A DNA stretch of 64,000 bases from Ascidia mentula (Eukaryota; Chordata; Ascidiacea; Phlebobranchia; Ascidiidae), in assembly GCA_947561715.1 (NCBI GenBank), contig OX387205.1:2857001-2921000 (forward strand), given 5' to 3'. Both the position numbers and the translations under genes were made by a program. Below the pieces are notes generated by a model. It saw nothing but the letters and a program-made list of their open reading frames with translations. It searched no databases and was not told the DNA's origin. Positions within the stretch are counted from its first letter, which is position 1, and every line of letters begins with the position of its first letter. This document shows, piece by piece, positions 1 through 62,178 of this stretch.

Positions 1-361
1 GTGGACTCACCTTGTAAAAACATCGGTAAATTTAGTGACGTAAAACGTCAACAAAAACATAAAACGTCTAAACTTCAGTTGGTAGAGGATGAAGGTTGAT
101 TGTTATAAGTGACATGACGGAAATCCACAACAACAACTTCCACGTTTGTTTCATAACCATCTGTAGGCATTATATACTATATTGTGTTAAGCGACGATCA
201 ATCAACAGGGAATATGTTATGGTGACAATTGACAGCTTAGAAGAATGAATAATAACGAAAAGTAGGCTACTTATTTCATAACTTTCTTCAAATAGACCAC
301 GTCCCAATAATTAAGTGCATAGTTGATGGCTGCGGATGATGTATTTCATTAGGAATTTATA

Positions 362-1190
362 GGACGCATATTGGTATTTCTATGAAAATTAGTTTTGGTG
401 CTGGGAAATGCCCACCGTGTAGACCTGTGTCACAATGCAAAGTCATGCATCACCAAGCAAAGCAGTGACGCAATTAAGTTAAATTTACGGTTGAATGAGC
501 GCACATGTGCGTGCTGTTGTCATGGCGAATTTTAAGGTGTTTGGGGCAGTTTTAGTGTGGTTTTGAGCTATTCCAATTAGGTAGTAACTTGCTGGTGGGT
601 GCTGCTGAAATTTATGTTGAAAATGGAGCAAAAAAATCAGGCTGTGTTTGTGGCAAAATGAATCGTTTAAGTGTCCAATCATTTGTGATTTTATGAAAGA
701 TCCATTTCATATCTACAAATTTTGATCAAAATTAGTCTCCGAAAAAATGGTTTAGCCACCCCCCTAGGGCCATTTGCCCCCCTGGTTACTCAATATTTTG
801 GTTAAAAGAGCAACCAAAAATGGAACTGGATTTTGCAGAAAAATGAATCGTTCAACTACCCACTCATTTGCATTTTTTTGTAAGTTCCAACTCTTCTCTA
901 TGCGATGGCATCAAATTTAGTTGTTGAAAAAGTGTCAATGCTCTCCCCCAAGGGCTGGGTATACCCCCCTGTTGGTCATATGATCTTCCAGGAGGCCCAA
1001 AAAGTCCTTGCTCTGTACAGTCTCATCCAGGAGCAATTTTTTTTTTTTCAACTTTGTAGAATTCCAGGTCCCTATGTAAGTCACAAGACCCATCAACGGT
1101 CATTGGGAAACAAGCGGAACAGTCGCTAGATGCATTACAGCCGAGGGCCTTGAACACAGGATTTCTCCTATCTAATACCCATATAGGTCC
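362..1190. repeat. 829-bp repeat, left copy
   Basis: This is a direct repeat of 2253-3081 at an exact spacing of 1891 bp, with no difference seen by eye. It starts GGACGC, ends GGTCC and is followed by TTAA. The inverted ends show that the 829-bp piece is itself a unit of the TIR family found inverted at 33536-34317. Short open frames inside (485-682 -, 905-1129 +) repeat with the element and look non-coding. Confidence 0.9.
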
Positions 1191-2252
1191 TTAAGGCGAA
1201 ATGTCAAATTTTTTAAATGGTGAAATAGACATTAAATTTACACTGAAATATGTTTATTTATGTAAGTTAAACATCATAGGAGGATTTTAAACCAGCTCCA
1301 GTCATCAGTCGCCACCTAGTGACAAAAATGAATTTTTTCAATGCCCTAATGTACATAAAGTATGGGGTCTGTTGCTTGACTTTCAGCTTTCAAACAACTT
1401 GAAATATAGCTTAAAATGCATGCATTTCCTCTATTGTCATTCCGCAACACATTTTGAGTCATTTATAACACATAGTTTTTGCAATGTATTGTTCATTCGT
1501 CATGGCATTTGTTGCATGTGCTGTCTTTCACAGCATCCATTCTTTTGTTGACCTATTTTGCAAAATCTTGAATTAAAGGCTTTTTCATCTTGTTTAGTCA
1601 TAATACATGAAATATAATTATTTTGTGGCCTAAGTACTGTATTTATTGCCACAGAAAGAAGTGGTCCAATGCCGGTGGGTGATACTTCAGACGAAAGGAT
1701 TCCAATAAACCCACTGCTGAAACTGCCGCAACCAACAATGTATTTCCTGTATGTACTGCACTTGTTGACATGTACAGTAGTTCCTATTTGTGTTTGGGCC
1801 ATTAAATTTCAATACAAAACACTTTGCAAGGTCTTGTGGGCCACTTAACAGCACTTTTTTCATGTCATTTTCATGCTTTGGAGATAGCCATGATTTCTTA
1901 CCATTATGCATGTGACTAATTAGCCTCGAATATTGATTAATTGAAACTTTTGTTGTGTCATTGAGCATGTGTGCATACAAATGGGTGTTGCCATGACTGG
2001 TGCATGATGTTTCGGTGTAATTTATGTGAACCGCTTAAGGTCGGTGGCATCATTTTCTGCCTATTAGCTGTACTGCTTGTAGCCCTGCTGATAAGGCCAT
2101 TTTCTGTTGTTTAGGGGGTGTTGGCAAAAACAGCCATAACTCTGGGATCGATGATCAACCAGGTGTGAAACTTCACATTGTGATAGGTGAATGTCCCATA
2201 TACTTTGCGGCTTAGGCCAATTGGGTATCTGGTCCATTGACCTTCTATTGAA

Positions 2253-3081
2253 GGACGCATATTGGTATTTCTATGAAAATTAGTTTTGGTGCTGGGAAAT
2301 GCCCACCGTGTAGACCTGTGTCACAATGCAAAGTCATGCATCACCAAGCAAAGCAGTGACGCAATTAAGTTAAATTTACGGTTGAATGAGCGCACATGTG
2401 CGTGCTGTTGTCATGGCGAATTTTAAGGTGTTTGGGGCAGTTTTAGTGTGGTTTTGAGCTATTCCAATTAGGTAGTAACTTGCTGGTGGGTGCTGCTGAA
2501 ATTTATGTTGAAAATGGAGCAAAAAAATCAGGCTGTGTTTGTGGCAAAATGAATCGTTTAAGTGTCCAATCATTTGTGATTTTATGAAAGATCCATTTCA
2601 TATCTACAAATTTTGATCAAAATTAGTCTCCGAAAAAATGGTTTAGCCACCCCCCTAGGGCCATTTGCCCCCCTGGTTACTCAATATTTTGGTTAAAAGA
2701 GCAACCAAAAATGGAACTGGATTTTGCAGAAAAATGAATCGTTCAACTACCCACTCATTTGCATTTTTTTGTAAGTTCCAACTCTTCTCTATGCGATGGC
2801 ATCAAATTTAGTTGTTGAAAAAGTGTCAATGCTCTCCCCCAAGGGCTGGGTATACCCCCCTGTTGGTCATATGATCTTCCAGGAGGCCCAAAAAGTCCTT
2901 GCTCTGTACAGTCTCATCCAGGAGCAATTTTTTTTTTTTCAACTTTGTAGAATTCCAGGTCCCTATGTAAGTCACAAGACCCATCAACGGTCATTGGGAA
3001 ACAAGCGGAACAGTCGCTAGATGCATTACAGCCGAGGGCCTTGAACACAGGATTTCTCCTATCTAATACCCATATAGGTCC
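2253..3081. repeat. 829-bp repeat, right copy
   Basis: This copy matches 362-1190 in the same orientation. It is preceded by TTGAA and followed by the right-hand TATA target duplication. The lack of differences between the copies means the composite formed recently, has been homogenised, or is an assembly effect. Confidence 0.9.
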
Positions 3082-3515
3082 TATACATGTGACGCGGTTG
3101 CAGTGAATATAACCCAGTGTTAGATTGAGGCCCTGCTGTCTAAAGCAAATTGTGACACGCGGCATAGAAATACACAAGTAGTGCGGCCACCAAGAATAAG
3201 GGTAAAAACACTAAAAAACATTTACCTCATAAAGCTGTGAAGGTGGCGTGGATTTTGGTTGGCCATGAGACACATGCTTTGTTTGCGGAATGGAGTTTGC
3301 CCAGTTTGCCGAATTGTAAAGAAGTGATAAAAATGGACAAGGGTGTGGACAGTTGCAGATTTGTAGCGTTTTGTTGAAAAACCGATCTGTATCATCAACA
3401 ATCCTAATGTCAGGAAATTTAAGCTTGGGGACTTCAGCTGATATTGTCAACGTTGCCAATATTTCCAATAGCTTTCACTAACTTTAAAGATAGTGACTAA
3501 GGTGAGAGAAGAAAG
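3082..3515. other. Upstream region of secreted glycoprotein gene, unit A
   Basis: No gene is supported. A reverse-strand open frame at 3211-3468 is open only in the two near-identical units; the diverged copy near 30990-31300 does not keep it, so it is probably chance. The region presumably carries the promoter and 5' leader of the gene starting at 3516, but I see no clear core promoter motif. Confidence 0.5.
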
Positions 3516-5437
3516 ATGAAGAATATTGCACCAATGCTATTGCTGTCACTTTCTTCTTTCTTGCTTTTCAGCAAAGGTAAAAAATGCATGATTTTTAACC
3601 GTAGTTTAACTTACAAAAACGTTTGCACTAAATATGAGGAGCATTATAGGAATTTGGTCATTGTTTAATAGTGAGTGTAGTCACAGTGGGCAAACTTGGC
3701 ACTAAATATGCTCATATTTTGTGATTGGTCAAATTCGGCTACTATGTAACCCAGAGTTTCTCAAGGATAAAATTCCCAGCGGGGTTTTCCGGGGGCCACG
3801 AACGTTTTTTGTACTGACTGCATTGCATTAAAATTCGTTTTTACGGAATACGTCACAGATCGGGCCCAATAGCTCTGTGGGTGACATTGCAAAGTAAGAC
3901 CACGATGTAACATCTTGAATGTTTCACAGCAAGAATTTACCATGGAGCTTTTACGCTGGACACGTTTTCTTCGACCTCCAAACTCAACATAACAGTTGTG
4001 TACGAAATGTGTTTCAGCATTCCGCCTCTACACGTTGAGGTAAAACTTATGTGTATTAATTCATGATTTTGGGAAATTAAAATGAATTTTGATTTAATTT
4101 CCGCTTGCAATATTGCGACGTTTTATTATGTTTTTTTGTCAACTCTAACGCAAATCCTTTTTTCGAGGAAATTTAGAAACTTTACAAAATAAAACACACA
4201 GTATGCAAATTAAACTGCAGTTATTTTTTATACCTCTGCACTAAACTGAGAGTTCGGATTTTTAAGTAAGGGACATTTGCCTCACTGTAGGGAAATGTTG
4301 AGGCTTTGCTATTTAGGTCTCTGGCATATTTCGGCGCAACGATGGAACTAATAGAAGCTTGTCACGCATGATAGAAAATCAAGATTTGTGAGCAAGATAG
4401 CGTGGGTTCAAGTCCCAGTGTGGTAAAAAACAGACATAATTAATCCAAAACAGATTTAAGAGACAAATGTCAACCGGCCGAAATTAACATAGGGGTTTTA
4501 AATTTTAGGCAGTTCCAGTCGCAAGTTCATCACTTACGTTTGAGTTGGATGTTTACAAAATCAAGGCTCTCTCGTTTGAAGGTGAACTTATAAGAACTGA
4601 TCAAGCGACCGGATGGAATTTCACAACTGTTACCGTTTCATGGAAGGCTTTTTTCCTTTCAGGTGTGCATTATTGTACTTTTACAATGTTGTTATAGCAA
4701 TAACTTTATGGATTACGCAAGTTTATAGGCATGAAGAAATAAACAATGAAACAACTTGTTGATGTTTGAATTTGGCTTGGATCTCAAACGATCCCTTAAA
4801 AACTGTTTCGCCAACGTAGAGTAGCCTATAATTCAGAATAATTAACACATTTAACGTAATACAAGGTAGCAACAACTTCCTTTATTTCTACCGGAATTCT
4901 GCTAATCTGACTTGGGCTTCGGCACGGAAATTCTGCAATACCACTTTACCAAATGGCGACATCTGCTCGAGTACGCAAATTTGCACCAAATACAACAGAG
5001 TCAGAATAATGCTATTCACGTACGGATCCCATTGGGCGCCCATCAGGTACGTTATAATGTTGTTATGTTGTTGGATTATGCAAGAGATGAAATTAGCTCT
5101 TTGAAATGTTCAAGCGACTATTTACTGATTGTTGTGTAAAAACCATCCAAAGCCGAAACTATTCTGAATCTTTCTTTGTTCAGGCTGTGATGTAATACAT
5201 TATTGTGTAACTTAGTTAGTTTCTATGTACACTGCTGAAAATACAACGTTTTCGTACAGTAATGCCACTGATGACTGGGTGCAGTTGGGCAAAGGGAACA
5301 ACCTTTGCAAAAGCTTAACATCTCTTAATCAAACGGCAGTTTGGAGCAACACCACTGGTCCGTGCCCTCCCTACAATACGACATTTGATCCCTGCCATCT
5401 CAAAGGCCACGTTTTTTGTTGCGGACCGGCTCAATAA
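3516..5437 (+). CDS. Secreted cysteine-rich glycoprotein, copy A (5 exons)
   Basis: The gene is not recognised as a known family. Proposed exons are 3516-3576, 3930-4039, 4509-4662, 4866-5046 and 5260-5437. All junctions are GT-AG and the phases agree, giving about 227 aa. Exon 1 encodes a classic signal peptide, Met-Lys then a run rich in Leu and Ser ending near residue 20. The rest has nine cysteines, five of them in the last exon including a Cys-Cys near the end, and eight Asn-X-Thr sequons. No membrane segment is visible, so it is probably secreted. Exon 4 contains W-A-S-A-R-K-F-C, loosely like the start of a C-type lectin fold, but the rest does not confirm it. AATAAA at 5710-5715 could be its polyadenylation signal. 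It sits 1.5 kb upstream of a channel gene on the same strand. Exon boundaries are predictions. Confidence 0.68.
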
Positions 5438-5929
5438 TAGCCCTGAAAGGCCACATTATACTGTAAAAATTTTATTGGATGGTTTTTAAGAGGAACTTAA
5501 TTTACAAACATATGAAAAAGAATATGATATTCTGTAAACTCTTCTGCAAGGAACAATTTACTTTAAGAGCAGTTTACTTTAACTCTACCACATCGTCACA
5601 TTGGATATAACATGTGCTTTCGTTTAATGCATACCTAACAATAGAGGAGTTACATGGGAAATTATTGTAATACGTATAATGTTAATATTATTTCGAAAAC
5701 AGAATCCGAAATAAACATTGAGGTAATAAATTGCCTTTTGTAAAAAGTACAAATTTCTTTAATTCTGTGCCGTCGGTATTATACCAGCAAGTAGAAGAGA
5801 ATATTTTTTTGTGCCAGTGTTTATATAACTTAAAATACTTTTCACCTTTTAATGATGCAACTGTACATACGAACAAGACAAGAAATTTTGCGTTGAAATA
5901 ATAGCCAAATTCTGTGATAATAATATGTA
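5438..5929. other. 3' flank of secreted glycoprotein gene, unit A
   Basis: No further gene is visible. AATAAA at 5710-5715 is the best polyadenylation candidate for the upstream gene. A reverse-strand open frame (5688-6041) lacks any recognisable feature and crosses into the next repeat module. Confidence 0.5.
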
Positions 5930-6350
5930 ATAAGAAACATGTTCCACATACTCTGATTGAAGCAACCCTTTGCATGAATATTTCCAAATACATCACTACA
6001 TGGCGTTTTATATCCGGTTTGATTTCTTCCTTGTTCTCCAATGTTCTTTTTGTTGGTAGCTTTTACGTTTGTGTGGTATGAAACAAAAACTCTGCCTTCG
6101 GTCTGTCAGAGAGAGGCCAGTTAAACTACCAAGCCCAGTGTAACTTCAAACATGAATGCAGAGAAATATGCGTGATACAAATAGAACCGATGACGTACAG
6201 CCAACCAGGAAACAACCTCACAGTTACTGGACCCGTGCTGTCAACACGTGACGCGCAAGTTCAGCTTTGGTAGATGTGCCAAGTGCGCGACTCTGAATTA
6301 TCGCTGCGCATTTGCTTTTGATTACCTTAAATTTAGTAGGAACCCAGCAA
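5930..6350 (+). repeat. About 420-bp module shared by channel and KEN-kinase units
   Basis: About 420 bp recurs at 14496-14916 (apparently identical), 19365-19800 and 32930-33330 (about 93% by eye). It therefore lies upstream of two unrelated gene families. Positions 6116-6274 read as a short cysteine-bearing open stretch containing C-N-F-K-H-E-C-R-E-I-C and an N-L-T sequon. That could be an orphan exon of a secreted protein, but no matching upstream exon was found. It may equally be a dispersed repeat. Confidence 0.6.
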
Positions 6351-6969
6351 ACTAAACAAGCCTTACTTTTGATTTAATCGGAACAGGGAAATATAAACAT
6401 AATTTTTACGGTCGACTGAACACACGTGCGCTTTGATTTGTTTGTAAACACGGAAGCTTTTCTTGAGACAGATAATGAAATAAACGAATTAACGGAAACA
6501 GCAATGGTGTTTGATAATTGCACCAAAGAGAAGCTGGGCGATAAAACCATTTTCCAGTCGACAAAACTTCAAACGTAAATAACTTTGCAGTTTCGTAACG
6601 GATTTCGATAATTTTTACACAAGTTGTATAGAATTGTGTAACCAGAGGGATGTTAGTTGACAAAAAAAAATCGCCAGTTAATAAAACTTTGAACGCGGGC
6701 ACAGCATAACTGCTTCAGCTAATATGAAGTTCTGCTTGCAAAGATGGTTCCTCTTTAGTGCAGCGACTGCTTTATTACAAAACATGTTTTTCGGCGCAGT
6801 TAGAAGTAAACTACGATTAAAAGAAAAAGGTGGTGTTTGTATGTTCACGAATTCTGTGTGTGGCATCTTATTTTTGCAAGTGATAAAAACGTTGTATAAT
6901 ATTCAATGAATTAAATAATAACAACATGCTACCCATGGTTGATATTAGGTAGAGTTCTTGAGGAATATA
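6351..6969. other. 5' flank of channel gene, unit A
   Basis: No separate gene is supported. Overlapping open frames at 6406-6702 (-), 6678-6866 (-) and 6724-6909 (+) recur only because the unit is duplicated. The channel gene's promoter or a 5' non-coding exon probably lies here. Confidence 0.5.
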
Positions 6970-9234
6970 ATGTCATTAGGGGAAATTTACTCCAAATTTG
7001 ACCTTTTGTCAATTCACAACATAAAGCCATGGTGGGAAACACTTCGAACCTTCACCACTGCAGCAATGATTGGATCAAGTCTGTTTTTGCTCTACAAAGC
7101 TGACATTGAGCCATTAAGGTGTCTCCCTCTTAACAGCAGTGATATTCCATCATTTACAAATGCCAAAATGTTGTTTGTAAATGAACAATGTAAAGAGGAA
7201 GGCAATTTTTTTCTGCTTAACTTCTGGTGGATTTCAATGTTGATATCGGTTTGGTTGTATGGGGCAATGAATTTTTGGGAGCACATTCCTGTGATAATCA
7301 ATGAAGTCGCCAAATTCAGAAAATTGTTTGATATTGTGTCTGGGTTTGGAGATTCAGTTGATGACCTGGTCATGCTAGTGACAACTCCTAATACGTCAGA
7401 CACATCAGAAATTGAGCGGGAAAGAAGAAAAGAGGGTCAAAAGATTGTGAAAGCTTTGTTCAAACAACCAGAACAAAATAGTTTTTGGAAACCTGAACAG
7501 GAAATCTTGATAGAAAATATGCACAAGAATATTGTGCAGGATTTTTCTGCCTTTTCCCTCCTTGATATCAGTGCAAAGAGTGGGGCAGATGTAACCTTTC
7601 CATTGACATACACAAAAAGAGAGAGATGTGTTTACCTTAAAGACATCATCAACCTTGATAATCTTTTTACTGAACCCTCATTACACGAAATGGAGCATTT
7701 GGAAATTTGGGAAGAGGATATGTCCCTAAAGCTGGGAACTCTAATATCCAAAATACGTCAAGGACACAAAATTAGAGATATTTCAAAACTTGACTCCGCT
7801 TCTTCTGACATTTTGCGTGGACTTTATGATGAATGGTCAACTGAATTTACCCACATGCCTGCAAATAGATGTGATGTGTTATGTCAACTATTTTCACTTC
7901 GTCAAATTGAGAATCTACGAAAACTAAAAGAAGAAGTCTTAGACCTGCAAACAACAAGTAAAGATATTCTTAGGGATATTCAAGCTGATGCCGTGTCAAA
8001 GTTATGTCTGTTGCGCAACCAAGAGGAGTTGACAAGTTTGGAAAAAATGCGTCACTTAATATACATTACAGATCCTACTGATCAATTGCCAGGATGGCAG
8101 CAATATGAGGAAGTCAAGGGTTACACCAAAACCCGCGATGATGTTGAAGGAGATAAGATTGGCCGTGCATTTAATGTTCAACCACCAATCATGAGTGATT
8201 TTTTTAATAAACATCGCCAACAGCACGAAGACAAACTTTATTTACTTATGGACTCTTTGAAAAAGGAAAGCCTTTTGAAACAACTTGAATCCATTCGTGA
8301 GTTGCCACCTCAAGAACAGTTATATCAGCTTTTTGAACACAGTGAGCAACCTGGTCCATCAAATGACAATTTAAATTTGATAGACAACATTCGAATTGTG
8401 GATGGATACAAACAACTTCTTGCACTACTACAGATTGTAATAGCTGACCAGCTGGCAAATACTGTTAATAATGAAAATGCAAATAGCGAAGCTTATAAAC
8501 CACACAATGACAGAAAGGTATATATAACAAACTGGTACTTATTTAGAAATACATTATCGGGTCTAATTGCCTTGGGTGGGATCATTTTGTTTTTATTTTT
8601 TTTTAGCCAACCAATATCAGATTTCACATGCAGTGATTCCTACACATGCATCTACCGTTCTTTCAGAATGGCACAAGCCATTGCTATAATACAAAGCATT
8701 TTTATGGGCTTTCTACTTTTCATCCTCAATGTTTTTACGATGAAAGTTTTGTGTCAAAAAAACAAATCTGACAGAAACTTCCTTCTGTGGTTATGTAAAA
8801 ACAGTGGAGAAACAAAAAATGTAGAAGTCTTCAAAAAACTTACTGCTGGTGTTGAGGAAAACGGTTTAGGGATAATTCAAAGGCTGCATAAACATATGAT
8901 TTTAGCTGCAAGAGAAAATGATATTGGTTTCTTTCAATTTTACATAGAAGTTTCAAATAAAGGCATTCGTGACTTTTTGAATAGCAAGTTTGTCAAAAAT
9001 AACACTGATGATGCGATTGATAAAACAATTTCCTCATTGCAACGCTTAGGTACTAAATCACTAACACCAGCAACAACACAAAAAATTCCACAAAATCCAT
9101 GTAAAAAATGTCTACCATTTGGTTCGTGTTGTAATCGAAAATCCACGAATTCCAATCGTTCAAATCAGGACACCCAATCAATTGATGGTGTAAACGATCA
9201 GGAAATCGAACCATTTAATACTTCACAAGTGTAG
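6970..9234 (+). CDS. LRRC8/pannexin-like channel without LRRs, intact
   Basis: This is a single-exon, 754-aa four-pass membrane protein. The ATG at 6970 is chosen because it puts K-P-W-W at residues 19-22, against residues 21-24 in LRRC8A. TM1 is about 25-43, TM2 about 80-101, TM3 about 527-546 and TM4 about 567-591. Extracellular loop 1 has C51 and C74 plus an N-S-S sequon at 55; loop 2 has C554 and C560, the two-plus-two cysteine pattern of pannexin and LRRC8 channels. The TM2 exit (G-A-M-N-F-W) resembles LRRC8 A-C-S-N-F-W. The cytosolic loop between TM2 and TM3 is about 420 aa, far longer than in LRRC8A. The tail has a Cys cluster near residues 710-720 and ends T-S-Q-V, a possible class I PDZ ligand. 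No leucine-rich repeats follow. A large-pore channel is expected; substrate unknown. AATAAA lies at 9604-9609. Confidence 0.85.
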   Translation: MSLGEIYSKFDLLSIHNIKPWWETLRTFTTAAMIGSSLFLLYKADIEPLRCLPLNSSDIPSFTNAKMLFVNEQCKEEGNFFLLNFWWISMLISVWLYGAMNFWEHIPVIINEVAKFRKLFDIVSGFGDSVDDLVMLVTTPNTSDTSEIERERRKEGQKIVKALFKQPEQNSFWKPEQEILIENMHKNIVQDFSAFSLLDISAKSGADVTFPLTYTKRERCVYLKDIINLDNLFTEPSLHEMEHLEIWEEDMSLKLGTLISKIRQGHKIRDISKLDSASSDILRGLYDEWSTEFTHMPANRCDVLCQLFSLRQIENLRKLKEEVLDLQTTSKDILRDIQADAVSKLCLLRNQEELTSLEKMRHLIYITDPTDQLPGWQQYEEVKGYTKTRDDVEGDKIGRAFNVQPPIMSDFFNKHRQQHEDKLYLLMDSLKKESLLKQLESIRELPPQEQLYQLFEHSEQPGPSNDNLNLIDNIRIVDGYKQLLALLQIVIADQLANTVNNENANSEAYKPHNDRKVYITNWYLFRNTLSGLIALGGIILFLFFFSQPISDFTCSDSYTCIYRSFRMAQAIAIIQSIFMGFLLFILNVFTMKVLCQKNKSDRNFLLWLCKNSGETKNVEVFKKLTAGVEENGLGIIQRLHKHMILAARENDIGFFQFYIEVSNKGIRDFLNSKFVKNNTDDAIDKTISSLQRLGTKSLTPATTQKIPQNPCKKCLPFGSCCNRKSTNSNRSNQDTQSIDGVNDQEIEPFNTSQV

Positions 9235-9845
9235 CAAATTTTTAGAATGTTTGTGTGTCTCATTTCCATATTCCCATTCTTTCATTGTACTGTACTTCGA
9301 TAGTATGATTTTGTTATGCTGCAAAATTAAATGTGAAAAAGAGACAAACCACATTTATTTATGTATGAATCTTGTCACATTATTTCCTGTGTATTCATAA
9401 AATGTGACTTTTTCTCAATCATTTTTGTGTTGCTGGCTATTTTTAAATATTTTATGATTTTTGCAAAATCTACGGTTTTCTTTTTCAAACCTGGCAAATG
9501 TAAAAAATATTTTGCATATTACCTCGTGTTATTTGCCAAGCAGTAACTTTGTAAGTTCCACATGCCAACACATTACATATTGCATTTTATGATTGTCTGT
9601 ACAAATAAAACCATTTGCATATTGTATTCATTGTTTTTATTCCTCTAGTGACAATAGATTCGCAGAGAGTAGAACATCAGCCATGGTCATGAGGCATTTC
9701 CCATGGTGGAAGCACAATATATGCGAAGTATCCGGTACACATTTATGCATCGAAAGTCAAACCTAAAAAAGTCGTAAGGGTTATCCAGTCAGGCGCCCAT
9801 GTAAAGAAGGAAGATTTTGAATGTTACATATCAAACCGTATTGGG
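9235..9845. other. 3' flank of channel gene, unit A
   Basis: This stretch has no gene. It contains AATAAA at 9604-9609, a candidate polyadenylation signal. The sequence matches unit B up to about 9797 and then switches to the flank of the channel C-terminal fragment. Confidence 0.55.
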
Positions 9846-10391
9846 ATGCTTCATTCCTACAATTGCATCTACCATTCTTTCACAACGTTATGGGTGTTTG
9901 TCATTATACAAGAAATTCTAATGGCATTTCAAGCATCAGCCTGTTTACTATCTTTGATAGAACTCTTGTTTCAAAAAAACATGTCGGACACCAGGTTTCT
10001 TCTCTGGCTTTGTGAAAGCAGCGGAGAAAAGAAAAATGTAAAAGTTTTCAAACAAATTCAATCTGGCATTGAAGAAAATGTCCATGTGATAGTTGACGGG
10101 TTGCTTAAAAATATGGTTACAGCGACACATGCTAACGACATACATTTTTTCGAATTCTACATGGATATCACAAGCAAAAACATTGATGAATTTTTATGCA
10201 GTGATTTTGTTCGATTTAATACCAATATTGCAGCTGCTAAAACAATATCTGTATTGGAGCTCCTAAAAACCCAGCCCTCACAAAAACCTAAAAAAAGGAA
10301 CACATTTCTTTGTTTTTTCTGCTTTTGCTTAAATCCCATGACAATTATGAGTAACATAAATTCCCCAGAAAATTATGAAGAACTGTTATAG
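9846..10391 (+). pseudogene. C-terminal fragment of LRRC8-like channel
   Basis: An open frame of about 180 codons matches the end of the channel family, starting in extracellular loop 2 (Y-N-C-I-Y-H-S-F), then TM4 and the cytosolic tail with L-W-L-C-E-S-S-G-E-K-K. It ends N-Y-E-E-L-L, like the 43632, 57038 and 62179 copies rather than its neighbour at 6970. The first three membrane segments and the whole cytosolic loop are absent. It is best read as the remnant of a copy cut by the unit A breakpoint near 9797. It could still be a 3' exon, but no donor gene is seen. Confidence 0.8.
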
Positions 10392-11290
10392 TTTCTGCAA
10401 AAAACTGCAAGCTTGTATCTTCTTGTGTGCATTATTGTGTGTTGTTCTTCTTACAAACGTATGTATGTATATGTTTTCGTGTGGTTAATTGTGTTTTGTT
10501 AAGGCTAGCTGCACCTTAGTGTTTTTGAATGCTGTTCACACGCTCCGCTGGCTGTGTCATTTGCTTTCTGTCTTTCGCTTTGTTAGGCTTGTGATATGCA
10601 GCAGCAGTGGCCTACCATTATAACAACACGTCTGAAGCTGACCAAACGTTGCTGTCAGAGGGTGTTTAGAAACGTATTGCATCTTTGTTTTAAAATAAAA
10701 AGATGTTGCTGTAATTTATGCTTGTGTATGCTCGCTTGTATCAAATTGTGTTTCAAATGCTCAAAATAAAAAACAAACGTATGTATGTATATCTTTTAAT
10801 GTGCTTAATCCATTGTGTCCGGATTTGCCCCGTTAAAAGCCTGACTATAAATATCCAGGTGAAAAAAGTAAATTCTGTTCTATTCTACTGAATACGTTCC
10901 GTTTCATTTAAATGAGCTATGCTACACACAACGATCCATTTTGGTTGTCAATAACGAATCTATATTTAAGATGCCACAATTCTCTGGTATTTTCCAAGTT
11001 CTGACAATCGTACCGATTTGTGAATGTAAGTACATTAATACTCAAGAGATGACAATGGTACGATTTGTCTACGGAGTTAGGCCGGCACAGCACCATAGCC
11101 TTCCGGTTAACAATTATTGGGACCCTGGCGTTAGCGCAACCTGCAGTGCATTGCCTTGTAATTTGCTTTCTTGCACCCTCATATTTAATCACCGACTGCC
11201 TTTTCAGTCAGCAAGTCGTTTTTTTTCAATTGTTGCCAATAAACTTTTTAAAACATTTAAAACATGTCGTTAATAAGAATGAACAGAAAT
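10392..11290. other. Downstream flank of the channel fragment
   Basis: No gene. Part of 10500-10640 resembles 63100-63250, downstream of another channel fragment. Positions 10850-11290 resemble 54720-55135, downstream of the intact channel at 52398. These are therefore inherited 3' flanks of the channel family. A TATG microsatellite-like run occurs near 10460 and 10780. Open frames at 10917-11307 on both strands overlap each other and are not supported. Confidence 0.6.
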
Positions 11291-12081
11291 GTGGACTCAC
11301 CTTGTAAAAACATCGGTAAATTTAGTGACGTAAAACGTCAACAAAAACATAAAACGTCTAAACTTCAGTTGGTAGAGGATGAAGGTTGATTGTTATAAGT
11401 GACATGACGGAAATCCACAACAACAACTTCCACGTTTGTTTCATAACCATCTGTAGGCATTATATACTATATTGTGTTAAGCGACGATCAATCAACAGGG
11501 AATATGTTATGGTGACAATTGACAGCTTAGAAGAATGAATAATAACGAAAAGTAGGCTACTTATTTCATAACTTTCTTCAAATAGACCACGTCCCAATAA
11601 TTAAGTGCATAGTTGATGGCTGCGGATGATGTATTTCATTAGGAATTTATACATGTGACGCGGTTGCAGTGAATATAACCCAGTGTTAGATTGAGGCCCT
11701 GCTGTCTAAAGCAAATTGTGACACGCGGCATAGAAATACACAAGTAGTGCGGCCACCAAGAATAAGGGTAAAAACACTAAAAAACATTTACCTCATAAAG
11801 CTGTGAAGGTGGCGTGGATTTTGGTTGGCCATGAGACACATGCTTTGTTTGCGGAATGGAGTTTGCCCAGTTTGCCGAATTGTAAAGAAGTGATAAAAAT
11901 GGACAAGGGTGTGGACAGTTGCAGATTTGTAGCGTTTTGTTGAAAAACCGATCTGTATCATCAACAATCCTAATGTCAGGAAATTTAAGCTTGGGGACTT
12001 CAGCTGATATTGTCAACGTTGCCAATATTTCCAATAGCTTTCACTAACTTTAAAGATAGTGACTAAGGTGAGAGAAGAAAG

Positions 12082-14003
12082 ATGAAGAATATTGCACCAA
12101 TGCTATTGCTGTCACTTTCTTCTTTCTTGCTTTTCAGCAAAGGTAAAAAATGCATGATTTTTAACCGTAGTTTAACTTACAAAAACGTTTGCACTAAATA
12201 TGAGGAGCATTATAGGAATTTGGTCATTGTTTAATAGTGAGTGTAGTCACAGTGGGCAAACTTGGCACTAAATATGCTCATATTTTGTGATTGGTCAAAT
12301 TCGGCTACTATGTAACCCAGAGTTTCTCAAGGATAAAATTCCCAGCGGGGTTTTCCGGGGGCCACGAACGTTTTTTGTACTGACTGCATTGCATTAAAAT
12401 TCGTTTTTACGGAATACGTCACAGATCGGGCCCAATAGCTCTGTGGGTGACATTGCAAAGTAAGACCACGATGTAACATCTTGAATGTTTCACAGCAAGA
12501 ATTTACCATGGAGCTTTTACGCTGGACACGTTTTCTTCGACCTCCAAACTCAACATAACAGTTGTGTACGAAATGTGTTTCAGCATTCCGCCTCTACACG
12601 TTGAGGTAAAACTTATGTGTATTAATTCATGATTTTGGGAAATTAAAATGAATTTTGATTTAATTTCCGCTTGCAATATTGCGACGTTTTATTATGTTTT
12701 TTTGTCAACTCTAACGCAAATCCTTTTTTCGAGGAAATTTAGAAACTTTACAAAATAAAACACACAGTATGCAAATTAAACTGCAGTTATTTTTTATACC
12801 TCTGCACTAAACTGAGAGTTCGGATTTTTAAGTAAGGGACATTTGCCTCACTGTAGGGAAATGTTGAGGCTTTGCTATTTAGGTCTCTGGCATATTTCGG
12901 CGCAACGATGGAACTAATAGAAGCTTGTCACGCATGATAGAAAATCAAGATTTGTGAGCAAGATAGCGTGGGTTCAAGTCCCAGTGTGGTAAAAAACAGA
13001 CATAATTAATCCAAAACAGATTTAAGAGACAAATGTCAACCGGCCGAAATTAACATAGGGGTTTTAAATTTTAGGCAGTTCCAGTCGCAAGTTCATCACT
13101 TACGTTTGAGTTGGATGTTTACAAAATCAAGGCTCTCTCGTTTGAAGGTGAACTTATAAGAACTGATCAAGCGACCGGATGGAATTTCACAACTGTTACC
13201 GTTTCATGGAAGGCTTTTTTCCTTTCAGGTGTGCATTATTGTACTTTTACAATGTTGTTATAGCAATAACTTTATGGATTACGCAAGTTTATAGGCATGA
13301 AGAAATAAACAATGAAACAACTTGTTGATGTTTGAATTTGGCTTGGATCTCAAACGATCCCTTAAAAACTGTTTCGCCAACGTAGAGTAGCCTATAATTC
13401 AGAATAATTAACACATTTAACGTAATACAAGGTAGCAACAACTTCCTTTATTTCTACCGGAATTCTGCTAATCTGACTTGGGCTTCGGCACGGAAATTCT
13501 GCAATACCACTTTACCAAATGGCGACATCTGCTCGAGTACGCAAATTTGCACCAAATACAACAGAGTCAGAATAATGCTATTCACGTACGGATCCCATTG
13601 GGCGCCCATCAGGTACGTTATAATGTTGTTATGTTGTTGGATTATGCAAGAGATGAAATTAGCTCTTTGAAATGTTCAAGCGACTATTTACTGATTGTTG
13701 TGTAAAAACCATCCAAAGCCGAAACTATTCTGAATCTTTCTTTGTTCAGGCTGTGATGTAATACATTATTGTGTAACTTAGTTAGTTTCTATGTACACTG
13801 CTGAAAATACAACGTTTTCGTACAGTAATGCCACTGATGACTGGGTGCAGTTGGGCAAAGGGAACAACCTTTGCAAAAGCTTAACATCTCTTAATCAAAC
13901 GGCAGTTTGGAGCAACACCACTGGTCCGTGCCCTCCCTACAATACGACATTTGATCCCTGCCATCTCAAAGGCCACGTTTTTTGTTGCGGACCGGCTCAA
14001 TAA
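12082..14003 (+). CDS. Secreted cysteine-rich glycoprotein, copy B (5 exons)
   Basis: This is the unit B copy of the gene at 3516, shifted by 8566 bp. Exons are 12082-12142, 12496-12605, 13075-13228, 13432-13612 and 13826-14003. I saw no base difference in exons or introns, so the predicted 227-aa protein (signal peptide, nine cysteines, eight sequons) is the same. Perfect intron identity points to a very recent duplication or gene conversion rather than selection on the protein. It lies upstream of the frameshifted channel at 15536. Family unknown; exon limits are predictions from GT-AG sites and phase agreement. Confidence 0.66.
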
Positions 14004-15535
14004 TAGCCCTGAAAGGCCACATTATACTGTAAAAATTTTATTGGATGGTTTTTAAGAGGAACTTAATTTACAAACATATGAAAAAGAATATGATATTCTG
14101 TAAACTCTTCTGCAAGGAACAATTTACTTTAAGAGCAGTTTACTTTAACTCTACCACATCGTCACATTGGATATAACATGTGCTTTCGTTTAATGCATAC
14201 CTAACAATAGAGGAGTTACATGGGAAATTATTGTAATACGTATAATGTTAATATTATTTCGAAAACAGAATCCGAAATAAACATTGAGGTAATAAATTGC
14301 CTTTTGTAAAAAGTACAAATTTCTTTAATTCTGTGCCGTCGGTATTATACCAGCAAGTAGAAGAGAATATTTTTTTGTGCCAGTGTTTATATAACTTAAA
14401 ATACTTTTCACCTTTTAATGATGCAACTGTACATACGAACAAGACAAGAAATTTTGCGTTGAAATAATAGCCAAATTCTGTGATAATAATATGTAATAAG
14501 AAACATGTTCCACATACTCTGATTGAAGCAACCCTTTGCATGAATATTTCCAAATACATCACTACATGGCGTTTTATATCCGGTTTGATTTCTTCCTTGT
14601 TCTCCAATGTTCTTTTTGTTGGTAGCTTTTACGTTTGTGTGGTATGAAACAAAAACTCTGCCTTCGGTCTGTCAGAGAGAGGCCAGTTAAACTACCAAGC
14701 CCAGTGTAACTTCAAACATGAATGCAGAGAAATATGCGTGATACAAATAGAACCGATGACGTACAGCCAACCAGGAAACAACCTCACAGTTACTGGACCC
14801 GTGCTGTCAACACGTGACGCGCAAGTTCAGCTTTGGTAGATGTGCCAAGTGCGCGACTCTGAATTATCGCTGCGCATTTGCTTTTGATTACCTTAAATTT
14901 AGTAGGAACCCAGCAAACTAAACAAGCCTTACTTTTGATTTAATCGGAACAGGGAAATATAAACATAATTTTTACGGTCGACTGAACACACGTGCGCTTT
15001 GATTTGTTTGTAAACACGGAAGCTTTTCTTGAGACAGATAATGAAATAAACGAATTAACGGAAACAGCAATGGTGTTTGATAATTGCACCAAAGAGAAGC
15101 TGGGCGATAAAACCATTTTCCAGTCGACAAAACTTCAAACGTAAATAACTTTGCAGTTTCGTAACGGATTTCGATAATTTTTACACAAGTTGTATAGAAT
15201 TGTGTAACCAGAGGGATGTTAGTTGACAAAAAAAAATCGCCAGTTAATAAAACTTTGAACGCGGGCACAGCATAACTGCTTCAGCTAATATGAAGTTCTG
15301 CTTGCAAAGATGGTTCCTCTTTAGTGCAGCGACTGCTTTATTACAAAACATGTTTTTCGGCGCAGTTAGAAGTAAACTACGATTAAAAGAAAAAGGTGGT
15401 GTTTGTATGTTCACGAATTCTGTGTGTGGCATCTTATTTTTGCAAGTGATAAAAACGTTGTATAATATTCAATGAATTAAATAATAACAACATGCTACCC
15501 ATGGTTGATATTAGGTAGAGTTCTTGAGGAATATA
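14004..15535. other. Spacer between secreted protein and channel copy, unit B
   Basis: This is the same as 5438-6969 of unit A. It includes the shared 420-bp module at 14496-14916 and a candidate AATAAA at 14276-14281. No gene is supported. Confidence 0.6.
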
Positions 15536-17660
15536 ATGTCATTAGGGGAAATTTACTCCAAATTTGACCTTTTGTCAATTCACAACATAAAGCCATGGTG
15601 GGAAACACTTCGAACCTTCACCACTGCAGCAATGATTGGATCAAGTCTGTTTTTGCTCTACAAAGCTGACATTGAGCCATTAAGGTGTCTCCCTCTTAAC
15701 AGCAGTGATATTCCATCATTTACAAATGCCAAAATGTTGTTTGTAAATGAACAATGTAAAGAGGAAGGCAATTTTTTTCTGCTTAACTTCTGGTGGATTT
15801 CAATGTTGATATCGGTTTGGTTGTATGGGGCAATGAATTTTTGGGAGCACATTCCTGTGATAATCAATGAAGTCGCCAAATTCAGAAAATTGTTTGATAT
15901 TGTGTCTGGGTTTGGAGATTCAGTTGATGACCTGGTCATGCTAGTGACAACTCCTAATACGTCAGACACATCAGAAATTGAGCGGGAAAGAAGAAAAGAG
16001 GGTCAAAAGATTGTGAAAGCTTTGTTCAAACAACCAGAACAAAATAGTTTTTGGAAACCTGAACAGGAAATCTTGATAGAAAATATGCACAAGAATATTG
16101 TGCAGGATTTTTCTGCCTTTTCCCTCCTTGATATCAGTGCAAAGAGTGGGGCAGATGTAACCTTTCCATTGACATACACAAAAAGAGAGAGATGTGTTTA
16201 CCTTAAAGACATCATCAACCTTGATAATCTTTTTACTGAACCCTCATTACACGAAATGGAGCATTTGGAAATTTGGGAAGAGGATATGTCCCTAAAGCTG
16301 GGAACTCTAATATCCAAAATACGTCAAGGACACAAAATTAGAGATATTTCAAAACTTGACTCTGCTTCTTCTGACATTTTGCGTGGACTTTATGATGAAT
16401 GGTCAACTGAATTTACCCACATGCCTGCAAATAGATGTGATGTGTTATGTCAACTATTTTCACTTCGTCAAATTGAGAATCTACGAAAACTAAAAGAAGA
16501 AGTCTTAGACCTGCAAACAACAAGTAAAGATATTCTTAGGGATATTCAAGCTGATGCCGTGTCAAAGTTATGTCTGTTGCGCAACCAAGAGGAGTTAAGA
16601 AGTTTGGAAAAAATGCGTCACTTAATATACATTACAGATCCTACTGATCAATTGCCAGGATGGCAGCAATATGAGGAAGTCAAGGGTTACACCAAAACCC
16701 GCGATGATGTTGAAGGAGATAAGATTGGCCATGCATTTAATGTTCAACCACCAATCATGAGTAATTTTTTTAATGAACAACGCCAACAGCACGAAGACAA
16801 ACTTTTTTCACTTATGGACTCTTTAAAAAAGGAAAGCTTTTTGAAACAACTTGAATCCATTCGTGGGTTACCACCTCAACAACAGCTAAATCAGATTTTT
16901 GAATACCGTGAGCAACCTGGTCCATTAAATGACAATTTAAATTTGATAGACAACATTCGAATTGTAGATGGCTACAAACAGCTTCTTGCACTACAACAGA
17001 TTGTAATAGCTGACCAGCTGGCAAATACTGATAATAATGAAAATGCAAATAGCAAAGCTTCCAAACCACACAATGACAGCAAGGTATATATAACAAACTG
17101 GTACTTATTTAGAAATATATTATCGGGTCTAATTGCCTTGGGTGGGATCATCTTGTTTTTATTTTTTTTTTAGCCAACCAATACCAGATTTCACATGCAG
17201 TGATTCCTATACATGCATCTACCGTTCTTTCAGAATGGCACAAGCCATTGCCGTTATACAAAGCATTTTCATGGGCTTTCTATTTTTCATCCTCAATGTT
17301 TTTACGATGAAACTTTTGTCTCAAATAAACAAATCTGACAGAAACTTCCTTCTGTGGTTATGTAAAAACAGTGGAGAAACAAAAAATGTGGAGGTCTTTA
17401 AAAAACTTAGTGCTGGTGTTGAGGAAAACGGTTTAGGGATAATTCAAAGGCTGCATAAACATATGATTTTAGCTGCAAAAGAAAATGATATTGGTTTCTT
17501 TCAATTTTACATAGAAGTTTCAAATAAAGGCATTCGTGACTTTTTGAATAGCAAGTTTGTCAAAAATAACACTGATGATGCGATTGATAAAACAATTTCC
17601 TCATTGAAACGCTTAGGTACTAAATCATTGACACCAGCAACAACACAAAAAACTCCATGA
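15536..17660 (+). pseudogene. LRRC8-like channel copy B, frameshifted
   Basis: This is the duplicate of the 6970 gene. The first roughly 370 codons are the same protein, then divergence rises to about 5% (for example E-E-L-R-S-L for E-E-L-T-S-L). In TM3 a run of nine T in copy A is ten T here (17162-17171), shifting frame and stopping at 17173 after 545 codons. The other frame continues from TM3 through loop 2 (two cysteines kept), TM4 and the tail to a second early stop at 17658-17660, losing the Cys-rich end and the T-S-Q-V terminus. It may be a young pseudogene or a truncated three-pass product. The shift lies in a homopolymer, so a sequencing error is possible, though the second early stop argues for real decay. 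Confidence 0.78.
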
Positions 17661-18609
17661 AATCCATGTAAAAAATGCCTACCATTTGGTTCATGTTGTA
17701 AACGAAAATCCACAAATTCCGTTTAAATCAGGAAACTGAACCATTAAATACTTCACAAGTGTAGCAAATTTTTAGAATGTTTGTGTCTCATTTCCATGTT
17801 CCCATTCTTTCATTGTGCTGTACTTCCATGGTATGATTTTGTTATGCTGCATAATTAAATCTTGTTTCATGTCAAAAAGATACAAACTACATTTAGTTAT
17901 GTATGATTGAATCTTGTCACGTTATTTCCTGTGTATTCATAAAATGTGACTTTTTCTCAGTCATTTTTGTGTTGCTGGCGATATTTATATATTTTATGAT
18001 TTTTGCAAAATCTACGGTTTTCTTTTTTAAACCTAGCAAATGTAAAAAATATTTTGCATATTACCTCCTGTTAGTTGCCAAGCAGTAATTTTGTACCTTC
18101 CATATCCACAAGTTCCACATGCCAAAACATTACATATTGCATTTTATGATTGTCTGTACAAATAAAACCATTTGCATTCATCCTTCTTATTACTCTAGTG
18201 ACAATAGATTCGCAGAGAGTAGAACATCACCTATGGTCATGAGGCATTTCCCATGGTGGAAGCACAATATATGCAAAGTATCCGGTACACATTTATGCAT
18301 CGAAAGTCAAACCTAAAAAAGTCGTAAGGGTTATCCAGTCAGGCGCCCATGTAAAGATGTTTTCCTCGCTGAGAATCACCTCCTGCCGTCAGCCTCAAGG
18401 CCGCATACAACCGGTTCTTCCTAAATCTGCAAAGTTTTTGTAATGCAGCAAAGTATAGGATTTACCGCTTAAAACTTTCTTGCTTCGCCTGATGAAAACG
18501 AAACATGCGTAAACAACAAATTTTGAAGACAGCGCGCCGAGCAAATAGCTCCAATGACTCCAAAGAAATGCATGACTGGTGTGACGCAAGATCTACAATC
18601 TACATTCAT
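17661..18609. other. 3' flank of channel copy B and unit junction
   Basis: The stretch to 18353 is the diverged copy of 9150-9797. 18354-18609 is not seen elsewhere in the window and holds no recognisable gene; opposing short open frames at 18395-18589 (-) and 18505-18831 (+) are unsupported. Confidence 0.5.
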
Positions 18610-43631: not shown

Positions 43632-45828
43632 TCATAGTTCTTCAATATTTTCATTGTAATTTATGTTAATCTTTGAACAACAGAAAAACCTGCGAAAAGC
43701 GTTTTTCTTTTTTTTAGGTTTTTGCAAGGGTTTGGTTTTTAGGCGCTTCAATAGAGATATTGTTTTAGCAGCTGCAATATTGGTATTAAATCGAACAAAA
43801 TCACTGCATAAAAATTCATCAATGTTTTTGCTTGTAATATCCATGTAGAATTGAAAAATGTATGTCGTTAGCATGTGTCGCTGAAACCATATTTTTAAGC
43901 AACCCATCAACTATCACATGGACATTTTCTTCAATGCCAGATTGAATTTTTTTGAAAACTTTTACGTTTTTTGTTTCTCCGCTATTTTCACAAAGCCAGA
44001 GAAAAAAGTTGGTGTCGGATATGTTTTTTTGAGACATAAGTTTTATCAGAGACACTAAAGAGAGATATGCTTGTAAAAGCAGCAAACAGGCAAGTGTGGA
44101 CACAAAAAGCCGTGACGTTACGAAAGAATGATAGATGCATTTGTAGGAATTACTGCATACAAAATTATCTGGAGTGAATGAGGTTTGAAAATAAATAAAC
44201 CAGAATAAAAGCAAACCCGCAAACGCAATTATAAAACAATAACAATTTCTTAGTAAGTACATGTTTTTTATGTTCTTCTCAAAAAAATGCTTACATGTAA
44301 AATTATGATCTTGACTGTTTTGATAATTAACTTGATTCAGTTCATTTGCAAGCTGGTCAGCAATTACAATCTGTTGTATTGCAAGAAGCTGTTTGTATCC
44401 ATCTACAATTCGAATGTTGTCTATCAAATTTAAATTGTCATTTGATGAACCTGGTGTTTCACTGTGTTCAAAAAGCTGGTTCAGCTGTTCTTGGGGTGGC
44501 AACTCACGAATGGATTCCAGAAGACTTAAAACCTAATTCCTCCTAACAGAGTATATAAAATTGGACAGTTTTTCTTGGTGCTCTTGGTGTTGCCCATCGA
44601 GAAAGTTATCCCTTGGAGGAACTTGCAACTGAAACGCAAGGTTAAGTTTTCCTGTTTCAACACTTTTGCAAATTTCTGTGTAATCTTTAACTGCGTCACA
44701 GAATTCCCGGTTTTGCGATACTTCGTTGGGACCAATATCAAAACATCGAATTTTGTGAAAACTTTCTCTCTGTCTTTTATTTCGCAAAAGACGTAATTTT
44801 GACATTGCGTCGGCTTGGATGTCCTTGAGAATACTTTTGCATTCTGTATGTAGGTCTACGCTTCTCTCTTTTAGTTTACGTAGATTCTCAATTTGTCGAA
44901 GAGAAAATAATTGACATAAAGTGTCACATTTATTTGCAGGCATGTGAGTAAATTCAGTTGACCATTCGTCATTGAGTCTACGTAAAATGTCAGAAGGTGT
45001 TGAGTCCAGTTTCAAAATGTCTGGAATTTTGTTTCCCAGACGTACTTTTGATATTAGAATTCCCAGCTTTAGAGACATATCTTCTTCCCAAACTTCCAAA
45101 TGCTTCATATCTTGTGATGGGAGAAAAGCAAGAAGATTATCAATGTCTACTATTTCATTTAACGTGACATGTTGCCCGTTTTTTACATATGTCAATTGAA
45201 AGTCTTCATCCGTCCCGTTCGTCGCACTAATATCAAGGGAAGGAAATGCATAGAATTCTTGCACAATATTCTTGTGGATATTTTCTATCAGGATTTCCTG
45301 TTCAGGTTTCCAAAAACTATTTGGTTCTGGTTGTTTGAACAAAGCTTTCACAATCTTTCGACCCTCTTTTCTTCTATGCCTCTCCATTTCTGGTGTGTCT
45401 GGCTTATTAGGAGTTGTAGCCAACCTGACCAGGTTATCAACTGAATCACCAAAGTTAGACACAATGTCAAACAGTTCTCTGAATTTGGCAACTTTATGCT
45501 TGACCATAGGATGGTGCTCCCATAAGTTCATTGCTCCAAAAACGTAGACAAATAAAAGCATTGAAAACCACCACAAGTTAATTACGAGTGGATTGCCCTC
45601 CTTTTGGCATTGTTCATTTACAAAATACATTTTGGGTTCTGTAAATGATGCGGTATCACTGCTGTTAAGAGGGAAACACCTTAATGGCTCAGTGTCAGCT
45701 TTGTAGAGCAGAAATACACTTGATGCAATCAGTGCTCTATTGACGAAATATTGAACAGTTTCCCACATTGGCGTAATATTGTGACGTGACAAAAGGTCCT
45801 CTTGGGAGAAAAGATCGCGTAGTGACAT
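43632..45828 (-). pseudogene. LRRC8-like channel, reverse strand, two frameshifts
   Basis: It is closest to the 57038 gene. Reading leftward, the ATG at 45828 opens a frame covering the N-terminus (here T-P-M-W for K-P-W-W), TM1, loop 1 with two cysteines, TM2 and most of the long cytosolic loop. That frame ends at 44533. A frame change near 44530 loses about ten codons of similarity before P-P-Q-E-Q-L resumes. The second frame covers the end of the loop, TM3, loop 2 with two cysteines, TM4 and part of the tail. A two-base loss in an A run near 43855 shifts to the last frame, which ends N-I-E-E-L. With two separate lesions it is most likely a pseudogene. About 420 codons of loop and all four membrane segments remain recognisable. 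Confidence 0.85.
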
Positions 45829-61679: not shown

Positions 61680-62178
61680 TCTTCAATGAGTTGCTGCAGC
61701 ACTGCTCCAACCGATGTTTGTGACGCGTCGGCACTGTGAGCAGTTGGCGCTAAGGGCAGAGGGTGGTGCAAAAGCGTCGCGCGCACAAGTGCTGCTTTAG
61801 CTTTTTCAAATGCTGAAGTCAGGCGATTGTTCCAGACGAGCAGTGTAACTTTGTCCGAAATGCTTCATAGATTGGGGACATGATGCTTGCTGCGTTTGGT
61901 TTGAACCTGTGATAAAAAATTATCAAACCCGCGAATTCCCGAAGCCCCTTGATGGTTGTAGGAGACAGCGGACTCGCACCCTCATGTTGACTCTGTGATC
62001 GAGTAAATCAATTTGGTCGACGCCAAACTGACATTTGCCTACGTTGATGACAGGACCATGCACTGACAACTGTGTAAAAAGTCGTTTTAAATGGTTGTAG
62101 TGATCAGCAGGTGTTTTGCTTGGTACGAAGATGTCATCTAGGTACACAAATACAACATCAAGATACTGGCAAACTGCG
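61680..62178 (-). mobile_element. Broken Ty3/Gypsy pol fragment (reverse transcriptase to RNase H start)
   Basis: The reverse strand encodes parts of a Ty3/Gypsy polymerase: the reverse transcriptase active-site region with Y-L-D-D (about 62130-62150), the following thumb-side segment and the beginning of RNase H. It is a fossil with several breaks; no LTRs, gag, protease or integrase are visible. The left end meets a dispersed repeat copy and the right end abuts a channel gene fragment at about 62178. Confidence 0.8.

Follow-up and report, generated by a model that had tools for sequence, protein, structure and literature searches.

The 64,000-nucleotide stretch examined here (the window) covers positions 2,857,001 to 2,921,000 of contig OX387205.1 of the ascidian Ascidia mentula (GCA_947561715.1) and contains five copies of one gene family, three of which (M1, M4 and M5) were intact. 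The frame of M1 was intronless and extended from an ATG at 6970 to a stop codon at 9232-9234 (Table 1). Among 20 random sequences of 64 kb generated with a Markov-1 model, the longest stop-free frame was 208 codons. Hence, the M1 frame of 754 residues, which far exceeded this maximum, was not a product of chance. An original prediction, made from the window sequence, had assigned M1 to a separate branch of LRRC8-like channels in which the leucine-rich repeats (LRRs) were missing and their regulatory part had moved to a large cytosolic loop. LRRC8A-E are the subunits of the volume-regulated anion channel (VRAC), which is hexameric or heptameric, and the C-terminal domain of this family consists of about 15-17 LRRs. 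The results given below indicate that the genes probably encode large-pore channel subunits, which would form a branch of the LRRC8/pannexin superfamily that lacks LRRs.

The anatomy of M1 was evaluated by Kyte-Doolittle hydropathy and by an alignment (A2) of 15 members that were full-length or close to it. The top 19-residue hydrophobic segments were residues 28-46 (1.12), 80-98 (1.54), 528-546 (2.21) and 571-589 (2.36), which were taken as the transmembrane segments TM1 to TM4. Cysteines 51, 74, 554 and 560 were invariant across the 15 members, as were P20, W22, N84, W86, W103, Y523, R526 and N527, and the N-F-W motif was located after TM2 at residues 101-103. LRRs after TM4 were not found, since no LRR family in Pfam matched and one strict LRR pattern matched 0 of the 15 proteins. 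The K-P-W-W motif, the paired cysteines, the F-W after TM2, the four hydrophobic segments and the absence of LRRs, all of which had been read from the sequence beforehand, were present in M1, although TM1 was weak.

Table 1. Features of M1 and other family copies in the window.
Feature	Position	Strand	Evidence
M1, family member, intact single exon, 754 residues	6970..9234	+	Open reading frame (ORF) reading
K-P-W-W codons (residues 19-22), ahead of TM1	7024..7035	+	ORF translation; alignment conservation
TM1 (residues about 28-46, weak hydrophobicity)	7051..7107	+	Kyte-Doolittle
First extracellular loop, EL1 (C51, C74, sequon N55-S-S; N64 aligned with LRRC8A R103, 10 before C74)	7108..7206	+	Alignment
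TM2 (residues 80-98), then N-F-W-E-H-I-P (101-107)	7207..7263	+	Alignment; Kyte-Doolittle
TM2-TM3 cytosolic loop (residues 99-527, 429 residues)	7264..8550	+	Hydropathy; Pfam/PDB searches
Loop module, first copy (residues 241-330, core CQLFSLRQIENLRKLKE)	7690..7959	+	hhalign self-comparison
Loop module, second copy (residues 410-510, core IRIVDGYKQLLALLQIV)	8197..8499	+	hhalign self-comparison
TM3 (residues 528-546), invariant Y523..R526-N527 just ahead	8551..8607	+	Alignment; Kyte-Doolittle
Second extracellular loop, EL2 (C554, C560)	8608..8679	+	Alignment; Kyte-Doolittle
TM4 (residues 571-589)	8680..8736	+	Kyte-Doolittle
C-terminal tail, 165 residues, LRR-free, conserved about 604-695	8737..9231	+	Alignment; Pfam; pattern search
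Fragment: EL2-TM4-tail portion of another copy	9846..10391	+	Sequence comparison
M2, second copy, frame broken near 17.14-17.17 kb; segment 97.6% identical	15536..17720	+	ORF reading
M3, copy, frame broken at about 44.53 and 43.86 kb	43635..45828	-	ORF reading
M4, intact copy, 729 residues	52398..54587	+	ORF reading
M5, intact copy, 738 residues	57038..59254	-	ORF reading

A profile of the full-length family retrieved no LRRC8 from the PDB, and the protein was then divided into an N half (TM1-EL1-TM2), the loop and a C half (TM3-EL2-TM4-tail). A single window protein gave nothing useful against Pfam and the PDB. An alignment of 17 N halves (A4; M1 residues 1-174), picked ahead of the 36-segment survey described below, was then compared as a profile with 177,635 distinct PDB sequences. 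LRRC8 accounted for 25 of the 34 matches at E ≤ 10 and filled ranks 1-5 and 7-26; the top match was LRRC8D (E 5.5e-5). The first of the nine other matches stood at rank 6 (E 0.0059), and all nine were entries for GCN4 fusions, autotransporter, EibD or NEMO. Compared singly, 14 of the 17 N halves matched PF12534, the Pfam family of the LRRC8 membrane region, with E ≤ 1 (1e-10 at best), and 4 of the 15 nearly full-length proteins did so at E ≤ 10 (best 7.1e-6). The score of the paralogue L014 was 40.5 bits as an N half and 25.7 bits as a whole protein (curated cut-off 25), and the joined matches of a number of cluster members reached up to 38.1 bits.

The N half was also aligned with LRRC8 A/C/D by hhalign. 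The score was 46.2 (probability 91%, E 8.9e-7), and the maximum of 200 block-wise column shuffles was 27.7. The repeat with A4 gave 45.1, with a maximum of 26.1 in 150 shuffles. For pannexin 1/3, the N half scored 19.0 locally, which was reached by 1 of 150 shuffles, and 13.0 globally (shuffle maximum 11.0, 0 of 150). The connexin controls, including one connexin from this genome, had similarity no higher than the shuffles. According to these comparisons of sequence, the N half is related to LRRC8; the matches of this half were significant, and no unrelated four-pass family matched it better. A phylogeny had been proposed as a further check. In the N-half tree (126 columns), the family, LRRC8 and PANX1 formed a near-trichotomy in which PANX1 had a very long branch and the family was not rooted, so that this tree does not decide between an LRRC8 and a pannexin origin.

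The C half was compared with the same families. Its hhalign scores with pannexin 1/3 were 26.7 locally (shuffle maximum 21.1) and 16.5 globally (maximum 8.5), and 0 of 150 shuffles reached either value. The local match comprised TM3, with Y..RN at its start, together with the first cysteine of EL2. Both membrane halves thus exceeded the shuffles against members of the superfamily, the N half with LRRC8 and the C half with pannexin 1/3 (0 of 150 each, the C half being weak). LRRC8 and pannexin, an accepted pair, were used for calibration; their N halves recognised each other (0 of 100 shuffles), whereas their C halves were missed (7 and 36 of 100). Because the C halves of LRRC8 and pannexin also miss each other, the absent LRRC8 signal in the C half of the family does not speak against its place in the superfamily. 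In view of the number of comparisons made, the pannexin kinship of the C half may be regarded as suggestive rather than firm, and as weaker than the LRRC8 kinship of the N half. Hence, the predicted LRRC8 kinship held for the N half (profile, Pfam, hhalign and shuffles) and did not extend to the C half, where no LRRC8 match was obtained and pannexin rose above the shuffles. A register between the LRRC8 C part and the family tail can be drawn by eye; hhalign gave it no support, and it was rejected.

The TM2-TM3 loop had 429 residues in M1 and 128 in LRRC8A, measured alike. A much enlarged loop of about 420 residues, against 100-150 for LRRC8, had been anticipated, and the enlargement was confirmed with these measured lengths. 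Loop residues 165-514 of M1 had nothing above noise in Pfam and the PDB. The hhalign self-comparison of the loop revealed two copies of a module, with 56-84 aligned columns around QLLALRQI (E 1.6e-9 to 1.4e-5). The AlphaFold2 model of the loop consisted mainly of helices, at very low confidence. The first part of the loop can be aligned by eye with intracellular loop 1 (IL1) of LRRC8, a register that was likewise rejected because hhalign gave no support. According to PMC10049205, an LRRC8C chimera with 25 residues of LRRC8A IL1 responds to swelling and to low ionic strength, and the LRR domain is likewise considered part of the volume sensor, so that both regions are implicated in LRRC8 volume sensing. 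By analogy with LRRC8A IL1, a relative that has no LRRs and carries two module copies at the IL1 position would most simply be gated at the insert, and the insert may replace the LRRs as the sensor. A volume-modulated chloride channel was reportedly described from ascidian embryos by Villaz in 1995.

The variation among paralogues was explored with 36 distinct N-terminal segments, which were taken from the fetched loci by a sequence pattern. The pattern demanded P or L, the second W, the EL1 cysteines and a few other places, and it missed divergent copies (e.g., L032); in the counts, variation was possible at two places of K-P-W-W alone, its first residue and its first W. KPWW occurred in 22 segments, TPWW in 11, TPLW in 2 and TPMW in 1, with PWW in 33 of 36. 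As the first and third positions differ between paralogues, K-P-W-W alone would be weak evidence of LRRC8 kinship. A further EL1 cysteine pair, arranged C-x2-C...C like that of LRRC8A, was present in seven segments (L024-L027, L053, L054, L061). In a gap-free alignment from C74 (LRRC8A C113), the residue at -10 fell on LRRC8A R103, LRRC8C L105 and LRRC8D F143, which form the narrowest pore ring according to PMC6451053, where R103 is given a role in selectivity. The residue at this position was N in 16 segments, E in 8, R in 5, G in 2, T in 2 and S, A and K in 1 each. The ratio of non-synonymous to synonymous substitution rates (dN/dS) was 0.22-0.67 for eight of the nine pairs tested, and that of M4-M5 restricted to residues 1-125 was 1.00. 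For the recent pair L024 and L027, dN/dS was 1.35 at dS 0.04, which denotes relaxed or diversifying selection, or noise.

The copies of the family were surveyed in the window and in the assembly (195.8 Mb, 79 contigs). M3, M4 and M5 were 55-60% identical to M1 and 74-80% identical to one another, and M2 was 96% identical to M1 (M2 and M3 by their N-terminal pieces). A six-frame search of the genome with M1 gave at least 70 matching pieces (60 of the 127 candidates scored; one gene may give several). At least 23 of these 70 spanned at least 684 of 753 residues without a stop, with 21 on C73, one on C67 and one on C52. With the paralogue L014 as the query, 59 of 128 candidates were scored and at least 77 pieces were obtained, again on these three contigs. 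The lone intact members outside the C73 cluster were L013 (C67:14.16 Mb) and L023 (C52:10.00 Mb), which were each other's nearest relatives in the N-half tree (support 98/98) and represent dispersed copies. Relatives of the family were not found in viral contigs or in prokaryote genome contigs.

The M1 array at C73:2818419-2874720 (window 1-18357) contained six protein-identical copies at a spacing of 8,566 bp, with one gap of 11,290 bp, and L002-L006 of this array were identical over 5,259 bp each. This identity reflects either a very recent amplification or an assembly artefact. L024 and L025 (C73:2604600-2607900 and 2633300-2636600) had a long C-terminal coding repeat of about 13 residues, of the GQSSSGGAAIGQG type, which was open to the fetched end. 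In the window, the frame end at 62078-62428 (+) resembled the C-terminal tail of the family and was a stray fragment. Pieces of a protein-kinase gene occurred in two copies amid the channel genes, at 28349-29025 and 38843-40128 (+), with a best Pkinase E of 1.4e-13; their last exon has what we take to be an IRE1-like look. A reverse-transcriptase fragment was located at 61923-62282 (-) (RVT_1, E 1.7e-8).

Glycoside hydrolase 6 beside cellulose synthase is a tunicate trait, and the genome had two glycoside hydrolase 6 matches just over the cut-off of 27 (32.0 and 27.8 bits). Connexin matches in the genome numbered 60 at E ≤ 0.1, and together with the glycoside hydrolase matches they point to a tunicate. 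The pannexin/innexin family PF00876 had no genome match in a search without a positive control, and it was not among the Pfam scan matches of the family proteins. The zero count was unexpected because Ciona is listed as having pannexins in PMC6391747, which gives connexins for vertebrates and tunicates and none for lancelets. Canonical LRRC8 was not found when the membrane region of human LRRC8A was compared with the whole genome, also without a positive control. PF12534 had 25 genome matches, of which 21 were within the family or resembled it and four were elsewhere and under the cut-off. A single exon at L040 (1806-2345; C67:16.565 Mb) reached 21.6 bits with PF12534 when the exon was scored alone (cut-off 25), and it had I-K-P ahead of a first hydrophobic segment, as well as cysteines like those of EL1 and another hydrophobic segment. 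Judging from these residues, it is perhaps part of an intron-containing gene for a true but diverged LRRC8 or pannexin, and because of its score the genomic absence of LRRC8 is not proved. The 19.8 kb that begin at this place contained neither an LRR pattern nor a significant match to LRRC8A or PANX1.

The family was compared with known large-pore channels. It shared with LRRC8A-E the four-pass plan, P-W-W ahead of TM1, C-x-P after TM1, N-F-W-x3-P after TM2, the position of the cytosolic loop at IL1 and [VI]-[ND]-x-x-C before TM2 (FINQMC in LRRC8C/D, FINKMC in some paralogues). It differed from them in the lack of LRRs, the duplicated loop module, the short EL2, the tail of about 165 residues and a C half unrecognisable as LRRC8. 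The extracellular loops of LRRC8A are joined by three disulphides, and four of its six extracellular cysteine positions were present in most family members. Pannexins 1-3 also had the four-pass plan, two cysteines per extracellular loop and no LRRs, with Y..RN before TM3 in PANX3 and F-V-C in EL2 of PANX1; however, their N half was much less alike than that of LRRC8, PF00876 did not match and PANX1 and PANX3 have no such insert. The four-pass large-pore plan of connexins was the same, without similarity over shuffles. The family therefore fails one feature that defines LRRC8, the LRRs, and from its sequence is most aptly regarded as a branch without LRRs within the LRRC8/pannexin superfamily. 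The branch had been thought to be without a description, and none was found in the open-access literature searched for LRRC8 in tunicates, in amphioxus and in LRR-less forms, a body of work outside which most subscription papers lie.

In the proposed channel, each subunit would have both of its termini and its long loop in the cytosol, and the subunits would assemble into an oligomer. The pore would be lined by TM1 and the short N-terminal segment with P-W-W, and the EL1 stretch ahead of C74 would make the outer ring that sets selectivity, at the position of LRRC8A R103. Two disulphides may join EL1 to EL2. The pore would conduct small ions and probably small metabolites. The cytosolic insert of about 350 residues, with its two copies of a putatively helical module, may govern opening, and it occupies the place of the short IL1 stretch on which volume sensing depends in LRRC8A. 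Tandem duplication would provide paralogues with differing ring residues, which may form heteromers of differing selectivity, like LRRC8A-E. The regions that form the outer pore and the P-W-W entrance of LRRC8 were conserved, and the ring residue and the loop were variable. The working model is of a channel that would be gated through the insert.

Several observations weigh against this channel, in addition to the failure of the full-length profile. Only two of the 15 members had a TM1 that reached the threshold of 1.5 (for comparison, that of LRRC8A had 1.75), and TM2 of L027 was also under it. EL2 was short, with cysteines six apart rather than 15 as in LRRC8A. The LRRC8D match was divided into stretches of 14.0 and 9.2 bits, neither of which was significant alone. 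For PF12534, the window copies gave 12.1 bits, 12.4 bits and no match, all under the cut-off, so that the LRRC8 link depends less on the window copies than on their paralogues in other parts of the genome. The C half had no PDB match and no credible Pfam match, and its LRRC8 scores were equalled by 28 of 150 shuffles locally and 84 of 150 globally. The pannexin match of the C half had hhalign probabilities of only 14% locally and 4% globally in absolute terms, and for PANX1 alone the local score was reached by 3 of 60 shuffles (0 of 60 globally). Furthermore, AlphaFold2 models of the whole protein and of the C half, made from window sequences only, had mean predicted local distance difference test values of 37.9 and 51.7, respectively, and Foldseek, which had been suggested as a check of the fold, gave no match at E ≤ 0.001 for either. 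Mouse pannexin 1 was first among the 146 whole-model matches at E ≤ 10 (E 0.59, template modelling score 0.11/0.29, low-confidence model), with other pannexin chains at ranks 5, 14, 22 and 36 among the best 50 of the 146; nothing relevant was among the 31 matches of the C-half model. The predicted models were too poor to interpret, and no conclusion was based on them.

Other explanations of the family were weighed against these results. The proteins may belong to the same superfamily without being large-pore channels of the plasma membrane; they would then have turned into membrane scaffolds or regulators, or into silent subunits dependent on a partner, with the pore lost after the insert. The large insert, the weak TM1, the variable first and third positions of K-P-W-W and the several broken copies would be expected in that case; however, the pore-near landmarks of LRRC8 (P20, W22, N84, W86, W103 and the four extracellular cysteines) were invariant in the 15 members and dN/dS was below 1 for eight of nine pairs, which makes a lost pore unlikely. 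An origin as a diverged tunicate pannexin, whose LRRC8-like N half consists of retained ancestral residues and whose lineage never had LRRs, would account for the C half that matched pannexin 1/3 and not LRRC8 and for the two cysteines per loop as in PANX1. It would also fit the lack of a PF00876 genome match in the uncontrolled search, although Ciona is listed with pannexins in PMC6391747. This origin is quite improbable given that the N half scored 45-46 with LRRC8 and was thus far nearer to it than to pannexin, for which the scores were 19.0 locally and 13.0 globally. A chance likeness of TM1-TM2 to LRRC8 in an unrelated four-pass family is hardly credible: it would explain the C half without PDB or credible Pfam matches and the full-length profile without LRRC8 in the PDB, but LRRC8 topped two blind N-half searches (PDB and Pfam), 0 of 200 and 0 of 150 shuffles reached the N-half score, and connexins did not match.

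The LRR-less branch of large-pore subunits, if true, has implications for the history of the superfamily and for tunicates. According to PMC5064130, LRRC8 has been proposed to have arisen at the base of chordates through the union of a pannexin with LRRs, and an LRR-less branch would bear on this origin. On a more speculative and rather doubtful view, a tunicate lineage has given up LRR-type LRRC8, and dozens of LRR-less subunits run volume, ATP or other large-pore release, with the duplicated IL1 module as the sensor and with paralogues that have Arg, Asn or Glu at the ring assembling into channels ranging from anion- to cation-permeable. On that view, an N half of LRRC8 type with a C half of pannexin type would mark a branch that predates the fusion of LRRs to a pannexin-like core. 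A natural relative without LRRs, with an enlarged IL1 and in dozens of versions, would separate the roles of the LRRs and IL1 without engineering. Moreover, the paralogues that differ at the ring position would be ready-made selectivity variants.

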